A stretch of DNA of 64,000 bases from Nitrososphaerales archaeon. GTDB lineage: Archaea > Thermoproteota > Nitrososphaeria > Nitrososphaerales > CADDZS01. The notes under the pieces were generated by a model. That model saw nothing but the letters and a program-made list of their open reading frames with translations, made no database searches and was not told the DNA's origin. Below, piece by piece: positions 51,169 to 57,997 of the stretch. Position 1 is the first letter of the stretch. Every line of letters starts with the position of its first letter. Made by a program: the position numbers and the translations under genes. The DNA is taken from positions 62,001-126,000 of the forward strand of contig JASHOD010000074.1 in assembly GCA_030041295.1 (NCBI GenBank). Reading direction: 5' to 3'.

Positions 51169-52155
51169 TTAGTATCCGTAATAAGAAGATGTGGTATGTG
51201 TAGAGCTGCTGCTGGTAGCAGTTGTCGTTGTTGTTACTGGGGCTGAAAGCGAAAGATTCGCAACATAAAAGCCGCCGATACCTTGCCCAGTCGCGTCGCC
51301 CGGCTTTGCGTCGTTTGCCCAATAGAAGAGAGGATATCCATTATATGTCACAATTTTCATGGTGCCAAAAGGAGTAATTGTCTTGAACTGCGAAGAACTA
51401 AGACCTGGCGGAAAATTCAAGGTTGAATTGTAGAAAATTGGCCAGTTCGCTTGACAGGTAGCTGTGCAGGTGGTGTTCCCGCTGTTAGGTGTGTCCGCTG
51501 AATCGTAGTACAAAGTAAAGCCCGAGCTGTTCGTCAGGTAGAATCCGAACGATGATTTGTAGGCTATTCCGACGCTATATGATTGCCCCCCGATTACCTG
51601 ACCACCAGACTGCTGCATGGTTGGAGGGATCGCGTACCAGAGGCCTCCGTATTGATTCGCCCCTTCTCCAAGCATGCTTCCGCTACGTATGTCAGACGAG
51701 AAGTAGTAAAGAGGCCACCCGTTGTATGTGGTTTGTTTGCTCCCATCGGAGCGGGTGATTGTGGAAAAATTGGACGAACTTAGACTTGAGGGCAGGTTAA
51801 GACTGCCGCTGTCAGCGTAAAATGGCGGCCACGCAGCTGCACAAGATCCAGTACATGCACTCGCGCCGTTGCCCGGCGTGTCCTTGCCAAACATGTAAAG
51901 CGTGAATCCACTTCCGTTTTCAAGATAGTTCCCAGTGGATGAGCTAGACGCAATTTGAACAGTATATCCATTCGATCCCGATGTTGTAGTAGTGCTTGTA
52001 GATGATGAAGTTGTTGTGGTATTGTGGGTTGAGAGAACTAAGGCAGCATAAGCTCCTCCTGCAATCACTACGATGACGATTACCACTATCGCGATGATAG
52101 CCACTTGAGCGATTCCTCGCTTGGAATTCAATTTCATTCTATTCTTGAATTTCAT
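51169..52155 (-). CDS. COG4315-type secreted repeat protein with a pilin-like N-terminus
   Basis: A 328-residue protein. The N-terminus SKRGIAQVAIIAIVVIVIVV fits the archaeal class III (prepilin peptidase) pattern: basic residue plus Gly, then a hydrophobic helix. A Ser/Thr-rich linker leads to two copies of the Yx(FWY)xxD/COG4315 domain: GFTLYMFGKDTPGNG with CTGSCAAAWPPFY, and GFTLYYDSADTPNSG with CTATCQANWPIFY. Each has a CxxxC pair and the conserved W.P.Y/F. Those domains occur in lipoproteins of unknown function. A strong TATA box (TTTATAATAC on the minus strand) lies 40 bases before the ATG. Confidence 0.8.
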   Translation of the reverse strand: MKFKNRMKLNSKRGIAQVAIIAIVVIVIVVIAGGAYAALVLSTHNTTTTSSSTSTTTTSGSNGYTVQIASSSSTGNYLENGSGFTLYMFGKDTPGNGASACTGSCAAAWPPFYADSGSLNLPSSLSSSNFSTITRSDGSKQTTYNGWPLYYFSSDIRSGSMLGEGANQYGGLWYAIPPTMQQSGGQVIGGQSYSVGIAYKSSFGFYLTNSSGFTLYYDSADTPNSGNTTCTATCQANWPIFYNSTLNFPPGLSSSQFKTITPFGTMKIVTYNGYPLFYWANDAKPGDATGQGIGGFYVANLSLSAPVTTTTTATSSSSTHTTSSYYGY

Positions 52156-52293: not shown

Positions 52294-52599
52294 GTGCTTG
52301 CTCTAGGTACTGATTTTTACATCAATCTAACAAGCGCGCTTTTCATCTTGGTGTCCGCTGGAGTGCCCGCATTACTTAGCTTACAGCTTACGGGAAAGAT
52401 AAAACAGTTAACATTGATTCTAGCAGGCTTCATTTTGATTCACGGATCCTATCATATTGCGGTGATTCTGGGATACCAGTTCATCGGAGCGGGAATCCTT
52501 GACAATGTCTCTATCATTGTTCTGATTATTTTCGGAATTCTCTACCTGAGGTTGCTACGCCTGAACGCCAAGGCAAAACAGAAGGCTCAAAAAGTATGA
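52294..52599 (+). CDS. Small membrane protein (three helices)
   Basis: A 101-residue protein from a GTG, with hydrophobic segments at about 10-30, 38-60 and 65-86, and a Lys-rich cytoplasmic tail. A conserved-looking IHGSYHIAVILGY sits in the second helix, with two His that could bind metal or heme. No family name is recognised. Its stop overlaps the next gene's start (ATGA). An AT-rich CTTATCTTAA lies about 40 bases upstream. Confidence 0.6.
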   Translation: MLALGTDFYINLTSALFILVSAGVPALLSLQLTGKIKQLTLILAGFILIHGSYHIAVILGYQFIGAGILDNVSIIVLIIFGILYLRLLRLNAKAKQKAQKV

Positions 52600-52958
52600 T
52601 AAACTTAGACACGTTACTCGAATATGATCTGCCCTTTCTTTTACTCCTTGTATGCATCGGATTTTTCGGATATTTGGCTGTGAGATCCAGAAGTATCAGG
52701 AGTTTCCAGTTTCAAATTTCAATTTTTGTACTAATCTGGACTATCGGGGAACTCATAAACGTCCTAATTTACAATGACATTATCTACCTACCGTATTCCG
52801 AGGTTGAGATTGGTTATGAAATTCATCTTAGTTCCATGATCTTCTTCGGCATATTCCTCTATGCGAGATTCTATTATTCCCGAAAGAGAGGAAAGCAACT
52901 CATTGATAATGTGGAAATCGAAGACTACTTTCCAGACAAGAAAGGTGAGATTAGTTGA
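52596..52958 (+). CDS. Small membrane protein (three helices), partner of the preceding gene
   Basis: A 120-residue protein with segments at about 12-30, 40-62 and 80-98. An acidic loop (PYSEVEIGYEIHLSS) lies between the last two and the charged tail ends DNVEIEDYFPDKKGE. No known family. It overlaps the preceding small membrane protein gene by four bases, so the two are translated together and may form one complex. It converges with a regulator gene, with ten bases between stops. Confidence 0.6.
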   Translation: MINLDTLLEYDLPFLLLLVCIGFFGYLAVRSRSIRSFQFQISIFVLIWTIGELINVLIYNDIIYLPYSEVEIGYEIHLSSMIFFGIFLYARFYYSRKRGKQLIDNVEIEDYFPDKKGEIS

Positions 52959-52968
52959 ATGACATTTA

Positions 52969-53379
52969 TCAAGCAGAATCGTTACCTAGTGTGAAGAAAT
53001 CTTGGGCCGTGCGCTCGACCGGGTTGAAGTTTTGTTCTCCCTCGACTACCACATTTCCAAGTTCGTATCTAACATTGAATGCACGCAGCGTGCTTCGCAC
53101 CTTGCTGAATTTTTTCCCATCAGGGGTAATCGTGATTTTCTGCACCCCTAGCAAACCTTGGTCCAAAAGCCATTTGACTTTGCGGTAGGCAGTAGTGTGG
53201 GGAATGCCAGTTTCTCTTATGATGTCATTGACCGAGACAGCTTTGAACATTGAGGCGTCAAGAATCTTGAGCATCTCCTTGTCTCCTAGAGCCACAAGGA
53301 TGGATTGCTTCAGTTTTTCCGACGTTATGATCAAAGGAATGGTTCTATGCCCACTTGGAGTTTCGAAGCGTTTATCCAC
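52969..53379 (-). CDS. Winged-helix transcription regulator
   Basis: A 136-residue protein. KEMLKILDASMFKAVSVNDI, then RETGIPHTTAYRKVKWLLDQ and GLL, forms a helix-turn-helix of the ArsR/TrmB-like archaeal kind. A wing and dimer strand follow (ITITPDGKKFSKVRSTLRAF). The C-terminus is short with no metal-binding cysteines. The GTG at 53379 is close to the palindrome at 53386-53403, and a TTG further in is an alternative start. It probably represses its own promoter and the divergent BlaI/M48 pair (an inference). Confidence 0.7.
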   Translation of the reverse strand: MDKRFETPSGHRTIPLIITSEKLKQSILVALGDKEMLKILDASMFKAVSVNDIIRETGIPHTTAYRKVKWLLDQGLLGVQKITITPDGKKFSKVRSTLRAFNVRYELGNVVVEGEQNFNPVERTAQDFFTLGNDSA

Positions 53380-53385
53380 TATTTA

Positions 53386-53403
53386 TTACTACTATAATAG
53401 TAA
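53386..53403. promoter_or_regulatory. Near-perfect 18-bp palindrome between two divergent regulator genes
   Basis: TTACTACTATAATAGTAA has two nine-base arms matching at eight positions and contains a TATA-like core. It lies seven bases upstream of the winged-helix gene start and about 70 bases upstream of the BlaI gene, a natural place for an operator. BlaI/MecI operators have TACANNTGTA cores, which this lacks, so the divergent winged-helix protein is the better candidate binder. Confidence 0.4.
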
Positions 53404-53474
53404 CCCATTTCTTTATTTATCAGACTTATCTTTTAGTAAAATCATTACCTTAGGAAGAAAGGAAAACTAGAAAA

Positions 53475-53879
53475 ATGTCATCAACCATCGGCGAACTCGA
53501 ATCTGAGGTCCTCAAGGTGCTGCAGGGTAGCGGAAATGCAACAGCGAGCGAAGTTCTAGAAGTGCTCGCAAAGAAAAGGGACAAAATTGCCTATACCACA
53601 GTCAGCACTACTTTGGATCGCCTGTACAAAAAGCATCTTTTGGAACGGAAGGGCATACCGGGCCCCGGAGGAGTAAAGTACGTATTTTCTATTGGGAAGG
53701 ATAGAAAAATCCGGACGAAGATTGTCGAATCCTCTTTTGGAAGGCTGACTAATGCATTTGGCGACAGCGCCTACTCTGCCCTTTACAAGCACATAGAAAC
53801 CTTGGAGCCGGAAGAATTAGAGCGCCTCAAGAAACAAGTCGACAAGGCATTGGAGAAAACAAGATGCAAGAGCGTTTAA
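53475..53879 (+). CDS. BlaI/MecI/CopY-family repressor
   Basis: A 134-residue protein. IGELESEVLKVLQGSGNATA, EVLEVLAKKRDKIAYTTVST and TLDRLYKKHLLERK are the winged-helix hallmarks of the BlaI family. The C-terminal helix with LEPEELERLKKQVDKALEK is the dimerisation part. In bacteria, an M56-type peptidase inactivates such repressors on a signal. Here an M48 membrane peptidase is encoded 19 bases downstream. A purine-rich AGGAAGAAAGGAAAA precedes the ATG, so this message probably has a leader. Confidence 0.85.
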   Translation: MSSTIGELESEVLKVLQGSGNATASEVLEVLAKKRDKIAYTTVSTTLDRLYKKHLLERKGIPGPGGVKYVFSIGKDRKIRTKIVESSFGRLTNAFGDSAYSALYKHIETLEPEELERLKKQVDKALEKTRCKSV

Positions 53880-53898
53880 AGTAGCTGGATTCCTCAAA

Positions 53899-54942
53899 TT
53901 GATTTCCATATTGCCGGTTCCTCTGTTCGTGATTTTTTCCTTCTTCCAAGATTACTTCTCAACGAATTATATTGCAACAGGTCTAGGAATAGGTATTGGG
54001 GTTTTCGTCATTTCATACTTATTATTTCGTCGCTCAAACAATCAATCATTCAAGACAAACCTTCTTCTTCTGATGCTCGCTGATTCCACGTCGTTATGGA
54101 TCTTTGTTCTATCTAGTCTAGCGTTCTGCATTACCTTTGCTCAGCAGTATTGGACTTCTGCGGAGCCGACAATAGCCTTCGTCTCACGTTTGGCCCTCTT
54201 TACCAGTTTCGGAACAAGTGTTATTCTGGTCGGTGTATTTAGAAAGAGAACAATTGACAGTACATATAGGACAATCCGCCGTAACTCTGTGATATTTGGT
54301 CTCGAAATAAACGAAGGAAATATTACTAATGTTTCGAGAGCTAACAGGATCTTTCAAAACCTTCTGAATAAGTTATCATCAGCATTAACAAAACGGGTAT
54401 CCTTCGCCCTTCTAACATCGGGCGATGGTTTTTTACCCGCATCGCTCGCCTTTGATTCGCGTAAGCTAAAGATAATCGGGCTACAGGAAGAAATCGAATC
54501 TCTTCTTGACGACGACGAACTCGAAAGCGTGCTCGCACACGAATTAGGTCACATAGCGAATCGCGACGCGCTTCAGAAAACAATTGCAACTGGATATCGC
54601 ATCGCCTTTCCATTCGACCCTTTTGCGCGCTTCATCGAAGCAGCGATTTATCGCAAGTGCGAGATTTCCGCTGACGAATACTCCGTAAAGCTGACCTCTA
54701 AGCCCGCATCACTGGCTGCGGCACTATTGAAGATCTACGAAAACGCCTTGCTCCAAATTCCAAAGCAACAGCTTATCGCCCCGATTGGCCCCGCCTCGTC
54801 TCAGCTATCCGTACTAAATGCGAAAAGAGAAAACTCCGAATCCGCCGATCGTAGGCGCAATTGGGGCTTTGGAGTTAGAATGTTATTGAGCAAGCAGCCC
54901 ACCCTGCAGGATAGAATAGAAGGGCTTCTTTCACGAGAATAA
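53899..54942 (+). CDS. M48-type membrane metallopeptidase, BlaR1-like partner of BlaI
   Basis: A 347-residue protein with membrane segments at about 5-18, 22-42, 50-75 and 95-115. A cytoplasmic peptidase domain follows, with the zinc motif LESVLAHELGHIANRD (HELGH at about 212-216) and the third ligand in KCEISADEYSVKL (about 255). No C-terminal sensor domain such as a penicillin-binding domain is present. It probably cleaves the BlaI-like repressor or itself. The signal is unknown, and beta-lactams are not expected in an archaeon. TTG start; the close spacing supports an operon. Confidence 0.85.
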   Translation: MISILPVPLFVIFSFFQDYFSTNYIATGLGIGIGVFVISYLLFRRSNNQSFKTNLLLLMLADSTSLWIFVLSSLAFCITFAQQYWTSAEPTIAFVSRLALFTSFGTSVILVGVFRKRTIDSTYRTIRRNSVIFGLEINEGNITNVSRANRIFQNLLNKLSSALTKRVSFALLTSGDGFLPASLAFDSRKLKIIGLQEEIESLLDDDELESVLAHELGHIANRDALQKTIATGYRIAFPFDPFARFIEAAIYRKCEISADEYSVKLTSKPASLAAALLKIYENALLQIPKQQLIAPIGPASSQLSVLNAKRENSESADRRRNWGFGVRMLLSKQPTLQDRIEGLLSRE

Positions 54943-55386: not shown

Positions 55387-55665
55387 TTGACGCACATCCT
55401 AGTTTTTGTCGACATATTCGTGGACTCTCCGAGGATGGATGAGGTGGTCACCACTCTCTCGAATATTCCAAACGTGGTGGAACTTTATGAGGTGACGGGG
55501 GAATTTGACATAGTTTCCTTGGTAAGCGCGAAGGACATCGAAGAGTTCAGAAGCTTACTCAAAGACAAAATAATGAAAATTCGGGGCGTAAAGAGCACGG
55601 TTAGCTCAGTCGTTCTTTTCGCTCACAACGGTCCGTACGCTGCGTTCAGCAGGCCTCAGCCCTAA
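55387..55665 (+). CDS. Stand-alone RAM (Lrp/AsnC ligand-binding) domain protein
   Basis: A 92-residue protein. LVFVDIFVDSPRMDEVVTTL, VVELYEVTGEFDIVSLVSAK and DIEEFRSLLKDKIMKIRGVK form the beta-alpha-beta-beta-alpha-beta RAM fold of Lrp/AsnC regulators. There is no DNA-binding helix-turn-helix. Such SraM-type proteins bind amino acids and may assemble with full-length Lrp proteins. TTG start. A paralogue (55888-56151) faces it from the other strand, with a palindrome between them. Confidence 0.8.
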   Translation: MTHILVFVDIFVDSPRMDEVVTTLSNIPNVVELYEVTGEFDIVSLVSAKDIEEFRSLLKDKIMKIRGVKSTVSSVVLFAHNGPYAAFSRPQP

Positions 55666-55887: not shown

Positions 55888-56151
55888 TTAATGATTCGAT
55901 AGACTCTTGTGATTTGCAAGAGAAAGCGAGGTTATAATCTCCCTGACGCCGCTGATTTTCATTATGTGATTTTTCAGGATGTCTCTGAATTCATCAATGT
56001 CCGATGCCGCAACTATAGACACAATATTGCAACCGTTGCCCGTTACCTGATACACTTCCTTTGTATTTGGAAGTTCTTTCAAAGAAGCAACAGCTCTGTC
56101 CATTTGCATTGTATCGACGAGAATGTCTACGAATGCTAAAATATCGCTCAC
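55888..56151 (-). CDS. Stand-alone RAM (Lrp/AsnC ligand-binding) domain protein, paralogue
   Basis: An 87-residue protein. ILAFVDILVDTMQMDRAVAS, NTKEVYQVTGNGCNIVSIVA and DIDEFRDILKNHIMKISGVR align along their length with the protein encoded at 55387-55665, so they are recent or conserved duplicates in opposite orientation. There is no HTH. The GTG start lies about 36 bases after an AT-rich GATAAAGAG. A role as an amino-acid sensor partner of an Lrp protein encoded elsewhere is likely but inferred. Confidence 0.8.
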   Translation of the reverse strand: MSDILAFVDILVDTMQMDRAVASLKELPNTKEVYQVTGNGCNIVSIVAASDIDEFRDILKNHIMKISGVREIITSLSLANHKSLSNH

Positions 56152-56289: not shown

Positions 56290-57276
56290 CTAGTGATTAA
56301 TTAACAGATACGAAATCCCAAATCCGGTCCCTGTACAAAGTAAGGTGACAATTACCCAGTCCCTGATCATTGTCACTAAAACGGATCTATTGATTACCGT
56401 TGGCCCTCTAGCGCTTCCGGCTCCGAGCATCCCTCCAATAACAACCTGAGTCAGGGAAACGGGGATGGAAAACTGAGTAAAGAGCCAGATAACAAAGGCT
56501 GTCCCGAGCATCGAGGAAAGTACCTTAACCTGGCTCAGCGTAATTATCTTGTCTCCGACAACCTTCGCAAGTGCTTGTCCGAAGAGAGCCGTCCCCAATG
56601 CGATTCCGAAATAGATTCCGACTTCGACGGCCAGCTCCGAGCCAACCGCGCTTTTCAGAGAAGAGTTTGCGTTGAGCGCAAAGGATAAGATCATCCCAAC
56701 ATTGTTCGCCCCGAGCGCGTAGGCGACGTAGAACACCACCCCGAATAGCACAAGACGGTTTATCCAACTTACGGACGCAAAAGAAATTGATTTTTCAAAT
56801 TTTGTCAGTACGAGATAAATCAGAATAACAACGCCCATGCAGAAAAACGGAGCAACAACCCATGAAGCAAGAACTTCTATCAGGAACGAAATGCTCAGTA
56901 CGGCCTTGCTTGCGAGCGTAACCCCGACGAAGGATCCTACAACGCAATTGGACAGGCTGACGGGAATCTTCACCAAAGTCAGGATAAGAAATAGGAAGAA
57001 AGTGACGGATACACCGATTAGGATCTCTTGAACACCGATCGTCCCCTGAATAAGCTTGCCGAATACACTATGTGTCATCTTGTCCCCCTCCACGATGAAT
57101 CCGACGAACATGCCTAGTAAAGCAAGAATCAATGCTAGCCTGTAGGTGACGAGGTTTGCGAGATTTCCGGTCATGAGACTGGAATTATTCCAGCCCAAAA
57201 CAAAGGCAGTAAGGATACACGCTAATATCACAAGGGCAAGCTCGATGCCCTGCGAAAGTAGAATATCAACAACCAA
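56290..57276 (-). CDS. PiT-family phosphate permease
   Basis: A 328-residue membrane protein in two homologous halves, each with the PiT signature in degenerate form: FVLGWNNSSLMTGNLANLVT near the N-terminus and AYALGANNVGMILSFAL near residue 190. Further family marks are SLSNCVVGSFVGVTLASKAV and PVSLTQVVIGGMLGAGSARG. It imports phosphate with protons or sodium. It is encoded 28 bases downstream of the DUF47 gene. Both signature Asp residues of GANDVAN are Asn here, which may alter ion coupling. Confidence 0.85.
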   Translation of the reverse strand: MVVDILLSQGIELALVILACILTAFVLGWNNSSLMTGNLANLVTYRLALILALLGMFVGFIVEGDKMTHSVFGKLIQGTIGVQEILIGVSVTFFLFLILTLVKIPVSLSNCVVGSFVGVTLASKAVLSISFLIEVLASWVVAPFFCMGVVILIYLVLTKFEKSISFASVSWINRLVLFGVVFYVAYALGANNVGMILSFALNANSSLKSAVGSELAVEVGIYFGIALGTALFGQALAKVVGDKIITLSQVKVLSSMLGTAFVIWLFTQFSIPVSLTQVVIGGMLGAGSARGPTVINRSVLVTMIRDWVIVTLLCTGTGFGISYLLINH

Positions 57277-57304: not shown

Positions 57305-57997
57305 CTAAGTGTAGCCCTTTGCAATTAAAACTAAAAGTACATCCGACGCGTCTTCCGCACTGTCAGCTACATCGTCAGCGATCTCCAAGAATTCTTTCAG
57401 CATGATTATATCAAGAGGATCGGCCTTTATCTCGTTCTTGAGCAAATTATCCAAGATGCTTGCGCGAATTTCGTCTGCTTCTTCTTCCTTCCTTTCGACC
57501 TTTGTCGCAAGTTCTACTACTTTCGTTTTGGCGTCTTTTTCTCCTAGTGCAAGTACAGCTACTTTCAGGGCATCGTCTGTTTCGATGAGCTTGTCAATGA
57601 AAGAGCGCACGTCTCTTTTGAAAAGATAGTCAGTCACTTCGAGTGGTATGTTGCGTTGAGAGAAAACTCTCGAAGAATCTTTCCCAGCATCAGCGATGTT
57701 ATCAATGTATTCGAGTATTTCGAGAAGATCCTCCCTGATTCCTCCGAAGAAAGATCCGCTACTGATATCCTCGATAGCTTTTTGGTGCATGGAATCCGCC
57801 TTCGTTTCCATTTCCCCAATGCTTTTTGCCACACTCAAAACCATTGACTTGTCGTGATTTTTGAGTGAATCAACTAGTTTGACTAATCCACGAGCTGTTT
57901 CGATCGCAAAGTCCAAATTCGTTATGACAAGTTTCAGAACCTCGTCTTCTCCGCGAGAAAATATGCTAAAGCGATGATGTGTCGTCGATGTTGACAA
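57305..57997 (-). CDS. DUF47/PhoU-like protein (Pit accessory)
   Basis: A 230-residue all-helical protein. LKLVITNLDFAIETARGLVK, IGEMETKADSMHQKAIEDI, IREDLLEILEYIDNIADAG, and the second EEEADEIRASILDNLL with the matching LKEFLEIADDVADSAEDASD are the paired metal-binding E...E..AD motifs of the PhoU/DUF47 fold. It regulates the adjacent PiT transporter. TTG start with a TATA-like CCTTATCATTG about 30 bases upstream, and an inverted repeat just beyond that (58035-58055). Confidence 0.88.
   Translation of the reverse strand: MSTSTTHHRFSIFSRGEDEVLKLVITNLDFAIETARGLVKLVDSLKNHDKSMVLSVAKSIGEMETKADSMHQKAIEDISSGSFFGGIREDLLEILEYIDNIADAGKDSSRVFSQRNIPLEVTDYLFKRDVRSFIDKLIETDDALKVAVLALGEKDAKTKVVELATKVERKEEEADEIRASILDNLLKNEIKADPLDIIMLKEFLEIADDVADSAEDASDVLLVLIAKGYT

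Follow-up and report, generated by a model that had tools for sequence, protein, structure and literature searches.

Two adjoining modules in the window

We analysed a 64-kb stretch of archaeal DNA (the window; contig C140 of genome G000) and found that its positions 52294–54942 are two separate adjoining modules: a gene for a BlaI-family repressor followed by a gene for a membrane metallopeptidase (module 1), and a trio of two small membrane protein genes, M1 and M2, with a winged-helix gene (module 2). We consider it fairly probable that module 1 is a two-gene repressor–protease switch, in which BlaI would bind a dyad upstream of its own gene, the protease would cleave BlaI on an envelope or redox cue and export and redox targets would be derepressed, with the trio standing apart. 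Linkage of the pair, the operator, the co-occurrence of sites with BlaI and the conservation of the catalytic residues are established by the sequences compared here.

The genome (3.68 Mb, completeness 96, contamination 6.9) probably belongs to a heterotrophic terrestrial Thaumarchaeota group; the isolate SubAcS9-71 falls in heterotrophic terrestrial Thaumarchaeota (PMC10640624; this and the other papers are cited from excerpts). Relatives were sampled within the order (151 genomes, 12 with BlaI and 139 without), within the class (250 genomes, 12 with a BlaI profile match, namely G000 and G006 again, eight in family f22 and the two weak matches G080 and G161) and in a scan of named genomes (14 loci, 10 of which appear to be counted already among the numbered genomes and so are not independent). 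Genes of relatives were simple longest open reading frame (ORF) calls, some of them spurious in G+C-rich genomes (e.g. at loci L133 and L134).

A preliminary description of this region had named five genes and the dyad; all were found in place, including the 4-bp overlap of M1 and M2 and their convergence on the winged-helix gene. Module 1 and the dyad comprise the following features.

53386–53403 (no strand): operator-like dyad, an inverted repeat with core 53387–53402 (TACTAC-TATA-ATAGTA), read as BlaI operator
53475–53879 (+): BlaI-family repressor, 134 amino acids (aa); PF03965; nearest solved sequences 2g9w, MecI and BlaI
53899–54942 (+): membrane metallopeptidase of M48/M56 type, 347 aa, start codon uncertain; PF01435 and PF05569

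The BlaI–protease pair is conserved

The repressor matched PF03965 over residues 5–123, above the curated cut-off (E 9.7e-15; 55.4 bits, cut-off 22.6). The protease passed two Pfam cut-offs, Peptidase_M48 with 47.1 bits against 20.3 and Peptidase_M56/BlaR1 with 32.4 against 31, and on these scores is borderline between families M48 and M56. Its earliest listed start is the TTG at 53899, 20 bp past the end of BlaI; the true start is uncertain. The preliminary description had seen an 18-bp near-palindrome next to a BlaI/M48 operon: the palindrome was confirmed, and the plain M48 label needs the qualification just given. Its comparison of BlaI plus a membrane metallopeptidase with the logic of bacterial beta-lactam sensing agrees with the matches to PF03965 and M48/M56.

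In the order, an M48 relative lay directly downstream of BlaI in 11 of the 12 genomes with the repressor; in G005 this gene runs into the contig end. All eight f22 genomes of the class sample had BlaI followed by an HExxH membrane ORF, and the stretches read around the weak matches in G080 and G161 held no HExxH ORF. An M48 gene adjoined BlaI in 13 of the 14 named loci, which include two Theionarchaea and one Woesearchaeote. Counted together (11/12 in the order, 8/8 in f22 and four further named loci), the pair was linked in 23 of 24 loci.

Staphylococcus aureus BlaI is cut between Asn101 and Phe102 (PMC9834060). The alignment column of MecI Phe102 was aromatic throughout in the archaeal proteins, with Tyr in 11 of 12 and Phe in the other.

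Copper sensing of the CopY type by BlaI itself was considered and rejected. The metal site of CopY is a C-terminal cysteine motif. The archaeal BlaI has one cysteine in its 134 aa and therefore no CopY-type metal site, and it scored 31.7 bits with the curated CopY model, below the cut-off of 121.95.

The dyad as the likely BlaI operator

The arms of the dyad (TTACTACTA/TAATAGTAA) are 9 nt long, 89% complementary and joined without a gap. Its core, TACTACTATAATAGTA, matches TACTAYNNNNRTAGTA exactly and is the sole match in the 64 kb at up to one mismatch. The expected number of core matches in the window was 0.10, and one or more occurred in 10 of 100 shuffles, so that the dyad taken alone is modestly unusual; it is more than chance because it is conserved in relatives. 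The 220 bp upstream of BlaI in 12 genomes contained one recurring dyad, TACTAY-N4-RTAGTA. Within 150 bp upstream of BlaI, 14 of 15 loci reached at least 10 of the 12 specified positions (G023 did not), and the operator-like character that the preliminary description had given to the dyad is in keeping with this conservation. In 13 of the 14 loci only 0–3 of 1000 shuffles did as well, and in Theionarchaea 16 of 1000. A profile built without the window ranked position 53387 first in the 64 kb, with a score of 19.4 vs 12.6 for the next. In several loci a TATA-like run, noticed by eye, immediately precedes the site, as would fit a repressor site in archaea.

The site also covaries with the repressor. 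All 14 BlaI proteins with a site carry TTVSTT in the helix-turn-helix, a stretch that by analogy with the BlaI family would be the recognition helix. The nine without a site (G023 and the eight of f22) carry TTVATV, or NTVATV in one case. No TACTAY dyad was found upstream of BlaI in f22, where the pairs (L169–L176) probably use another operator. Taken together, these comparisons suggest that the dyad is best read as the operator of BlaI.

Sites accompany BlaI across genomes

The 12 BlaI genomes of the order contained 33 exact TACTAY-N4-RTAGTA sites vs 11 matches to a reversed control pattern, and the 139 genomes without BlaI contained 111 vs 364 (Fisher p 1e-11). In family f10, three BlaI genomes held nine sites and the 30 others none (p 2e-4 by genome). 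A gene start lay within 150 bp of 24 of the 33 sites in BlaI genomes, all of which were read, vs 4 of the 20 sites read among the 111 in genomes without BlaI; this reading missed genes adjoining the site at L133 and L135 that were visible in another. The N-terminus was hydrophobic in 17 of the 24 site-proximal genes vs 17 of 62 window ORFs. Counted by promoter, 19 of 26 had a gene start nearby and 13 of 19 a hydrophobic N-terminus.

These data bear on the possibility that the dyad is a chance or promoter element whose enrichment reflects base composition or shared ancestry. Matching sites do occur in number without BlaI, and one window shuffle in ten had a near match. The reversed control, though, outnumbers the motif by far in genomes without BlaI and is outnumbered by it in those with BlaI, and both the position of sites near gene starts and their covariation with the helix speak against such an origin, which we regard as very improbable.

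The genes behind the sites, part of which were searched with Pfam profiles, encode beta-propeller proteins of NHL, arylsulfotransferase-like, BNR and FG-GAP type (L119, L120, L124, L131, L130), an exported phosphoesterase (L128) and a peroxiredoxin (L129). At L124 a methionine sulfoxide reductase gene lies opposite the propeller gene. A family-2 glycosyltransferase and a methyltransferase belong to a cluster that diverges from BlaI in AcS1-27 and that in G108 and G004 lies in part behind sites. In G000 itself, a 74-aa membrane gene and a molybdopterin oxidoreductase gene (L160) have a one-mismatch site 14 bp ahead of them; we retained this site, as G001 has an exact one at this gene pair. The same two genes directly follow the protease in AcS1-27.

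Two observations concern individual genomes. In G003 (L081) BlaI is divergent from a winged-helix gene, the protease is missing beside it and one exact operator is left in the genome, possibly a decaying switch. On contig C10 of G000, two near-identical long exported proteins (MNLFKSRLGISRVGT...; L153 and L154) are encoded on opposite strands at a distance of 20 kb, and both genes contain a one-mismatch site.

The protease resembles BlaR1 without its sensor

BlaR1 has the catalytic residues H201ExxH, D210 and E242xxxD (PMC9834060). The window protease has HELGH at 214–218, D223 and E255/D259, which correspond to these and make up the set of a membrane gluzincin (HExxH, Asp, ExxxD). HExxH and D223 were kept in 14 of 14 proteases, and E255 and D259 in all 13 sequences that reach them.

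An AlphaFold2 model of the protease, built with 14 sequences, had a pLDDT of 83.3 and a pTM of 0.79. The first rows of a Foldseek search with it were Ste24p (E 6.2e-4) and BlaR1 (E 8.7e-4). VIA-align gave Z 12.6 for ZMPSTE24 (6bh8), 11.8 for Ste24p (4il3) and 11.4 for BlaR1, the last over 230 residues that span about BlaR1 1–303. The predicted structure thus resembles both the membrane-protease part of BlaR1 and Ste24/ZMPSTE24. As the preliminary description had noted, a sensor domain is absent: the 347-aa protein ends after the protease part, with no C-terminal penicillin-binding sensor. The best scores with curated BlaR1 models were 15.9 bits against a cut-off of 1200 and 14.5 against 400.

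The likeness to Ste24 raises an alternative in which the pair is real and the dyad is the BlaI operator, while the protease is a general membrane quality-control enzyme (HtpX/Ste24-like) merely regulated by BlaI, which would sense a ligand or metal directly. HtpX-type M48 proteases respond to membrane-protein stress, the protease passed the M48 cut-off more clearly than that of M56, and its model fits ZMPSTE24/Ste24p as well as BlaR1. The BlaI without an adjoining protease in G003 points the same way. On the other hand, a mere target would not need to be linked to BlaI in as many as 23 of 24 loci, the curated HtpX equivalog models of NCBIfam were missed by far (best 49.8 vs 341 bits), and the single cysteine of BlaI leaves no CopY-type metal site. 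We consider this alternative rather unlikely.

The M1/M2/winged-helix trio is a separate module

Module 2 comprises three genes.

52294–52599 (+): M1, small membrane protein, 101 aa; ORF with three hydrophobic regions; no Pfam match above cut-off
52596–52958 (+): M2, small membrane protein, 120 aa, overlapping M1 by 4 bp; ORF with hydrophobic segments; no Pfam match above cut-off
52969–53379 (−): winged-helix protein, 136 aa; weak TrmB, IclR and HTH_20 matches, none above cut-off

M2 ends 10 bp from the 3′ end of the winged-helix gene, so that the two are convergent. With curated models the winged-helix protein scored below the TrmB and ArsR-type cut-offs (TrmB 18.3 vs 25.6; HTH_metalloreg 16.4 vs 55). 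Winged-helix relatives were present in 113 of the 151 genomes and M2 homologues in 28. Around the 29 M2 loci outside the window, an M1 homologue adjoined in 21 and a winged-helix gene in 12 (one of them a short match). Outside G000, the winged-helix gene stood beside M1/M2 homologues in 10 loci, all away from BlaI; the trio was convergent in nine and all on one strand in the tenth (L050). M2 and BlaI occurred together in four genomes and were adjacent only in G000. The winged-helix gene was beside BlaI only in the window and in G003, which is of the same genus and where it lies at the contig end.

The preliminary description had read the five genes as a single switch whose two regulators use a common dyad. 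In its favour, the winged-helix start codon has the dyad core 8 bp upstream, and in G003 a winged-helix protein 82–87% identical is encoded in the same divergent arrangement. Comparative genomics nevertheless went against this reading: the trio recurs in 10 loci away from BlaI, and the BlaI–protease pair occurs without a winged-helix neighbour in 10 genomes in the stretches read. Sites upstream of trio-type winged-helix genes (10 loci) reached only 7–10 of the 12 positions, and in G003 the dyad has kept its distance from BlaI (~60 bp) but not from the winged-helix gene, which is ~120 bp away. The dyad accompanies BlaI and not the winged-helix gene. The gene order in relatives therefore led us to reject a single five-gene switch, which we regard as very unlikely. 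The dyad as an operator of the winged-helix protein itself was likewise rejected, on the 7–10 positions reached upstream of its relatives.

We found nothing on such a membrane trio in the openly licensed literature. Cupredoxin genes above the Pfam cut-off adjoin the trio in L048, L050 and L055, and below it in L057 and L059 (eight neighbours tested, loci L046–L059); the trio itself may regulate copper proteins.

A proposed repressor–protease switch

In the switch that we favour, BlaI dimers on the dyad (53387–53402) would repress their own operon and, as the core lies 8 bp before the winged-helix start codon, probably also the divergent winged-helix gene; BlaI would further occupy copies of the operator elsewhere in the genome. 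The membrane protease, as a BlaR1-like core without the penicillin sensor, would stay inactive until an envelope or redox cue arrives. Once activated it would cut BlaI near the C-terminal Tyr104, the exported and redox protein targets would be switched on and both regulators would be made anew. The M1/M2/winged-helix trio would be a separate module and a neighbour by happenstance. DNA binding and repression by BlaI, its cleavage by the protease and the nature of the cue are what we infer.

In the model the protein extends beyond the bilayer only in short loops, which suggests a cue in or at the membrane; that exported, copper and redox genes occur together makes an envelope or redox cue the more likely kind. 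Cupredoxin genes above the cut-off were found near the pair in 6 of the 16 neighbourhoods read (G007, G023, G081, G108, G141 and the Woesearchaeote), and G006 had a cupredoxin relative by BLAST. The five-gene region of the window has no cupredoxin gene; its neighbour encodes a Lipoprotein_15 protein. Cupredoxin genes near pairs, together with exported and redox genes behind the operator, point to an envelope-stress or metal cue, which from the gene content is plausible.

Several findings weigh against the proposed switch. The best Foldseek rows had TM-scores of 0.33–0.38, a moderate similarity, and Z values of 11–12.6 are within the range that the tool flags as a possible common helical-protein arrangement. 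The conserved aromatic residue at the aligned cleavage position may merely mirror the fold. G003, the sole exception among the 12 BlaI genomes, has no protease adjoining BlaI and has one site vs four controls. G023 and f22 carry the pair without a TACTAY-N4-RTAGTA operator; G006, with both BlaI and protease, has no exact site, and neither have G023 and G081. The operator consensus came from the same upstream regions that were later tested, and the genomes are related, so that the p values are optimistic. Target genes vary between genomes. A wide regulon drawn from one-mismatch sites in G000 was dropped, as sites at up to one mismatch were not enriched (20 vs 52 controls) and 12 of the 16 one-mismatch sites lay inside ORFs.

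Comparison with known systems

The staphylococcal BlaR1/BlaI and MecR1/MecI systems likewise have a repressor of the same Pfam family beside a membrane gluzincin with HExxH, Asp at +9 and ExxxD (PMC9834060). They share with the archaeal pair an aromatic residue at the aligned BlaI cleavage position and a dyad, which in the archaea is putatively autoregulatory. The archaeal protein, in contrast, aligns with only the N-terminal ~300 residues of BlaR1 and lacks the penicillin-binding sensor. Its candidate targets are exported, redox and glycan genes and not beta-lactamase or mecA. The half-sites differ as well, TACTAY in the archaea and TACA/TGTA in the staphylococcal operator.

The best solved-structure match to the archaeal BlaI was 2g9w (E 2.5e-10), which we take to be M. 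tuberculosis (Mycobacterium tuberculosis) BlaI, Rv1846c. Rv1845c, the M56 partner of Rv1846c, has no penicillin sensor either. That pair has a bacterial M56 protease where the archaeal one has an M48/M56 intermediate, and the targets differ. M. tuberculosis BlaI reportedly has a wider regulon that includes an ATP-synthase-linked gene (PMC12565901).

In Clostridium thermocellum, DAP-seq of BlaI_0696 and BlaI_1845 gave the half-sites GTCTAT (inverted repeats 5 nt apart) and GACTAT, with autoregulation and paired sites (PMC8457756). These half-sites resemble the archaeal TACTAT. C. thermocellum, unlike our host, is a bacterium, and its regulons are very small and next to BlaR1 genes. HtpX, Ste24 and ZMPSTE24 (M48) share with the archaeal protease a Pfam M48 match above the cut-off and its top structural rows, 6bh8 and 4il3, but it does not reach the curated HtpX cut-offs. 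To our knowledge, the genes of these proteases are not next to a BlaI gene. The copper-limitation motif given for Nitrososphaera viennensis in the excerpt of PMC7785015 differs from TACTAY-N4-RTAGTA.

We found nothing on an archaeal BlaI system in the openly licensed literature. A sensor-less BlaI/BlaR1-like archaeal switch with its own operator is a variation on the known repressor–protease type. If it is real, the repressor proteolysis known from staphylococcal drug resistance would also carry signals from envelope to genome in soil archaea that have not been cultured. The drug sensor would then appear to have been added later to a more ancient protease–repressor core. The switch would also offer an operator and a set of targets for testing in heterotrophic Thaumarchaeota, a group in which gene regulation is, as far as we know, largely undescribed. 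More tentatively, and with considerable doubt, BlaI and the sensor-less M48/M56 protease might represent an ancient one-step transmembrane pathway of several archaeal phyla, in which repressor cleavage would couple the copper/redox or folding state of the envelope to a genome-wide export regulon via TACTAY-N4-RTAGTA.

Neighbouring genes

Next to M1, the gene at 51169–52155 (−) encodes a secreted Lipoprotein_15 repeat protein whose N-terminus carries a membrane anchor; in G108 (L133) a relative is found ~1 kb away from a pair of operator sites. Beyond the protease, two stand-alone AsnC/Lrp ligand-binding domains without a DNA-binding part face each other at 55387–55665 (+) and 55888–56151 (−). 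They adjoin a PHO4-type phosphate transporter gene (56290–57276) and a gene for a PhoU-like protein (57305–57997). Relatives of the AsnC domains are also found near BlaI in G003 and G117.

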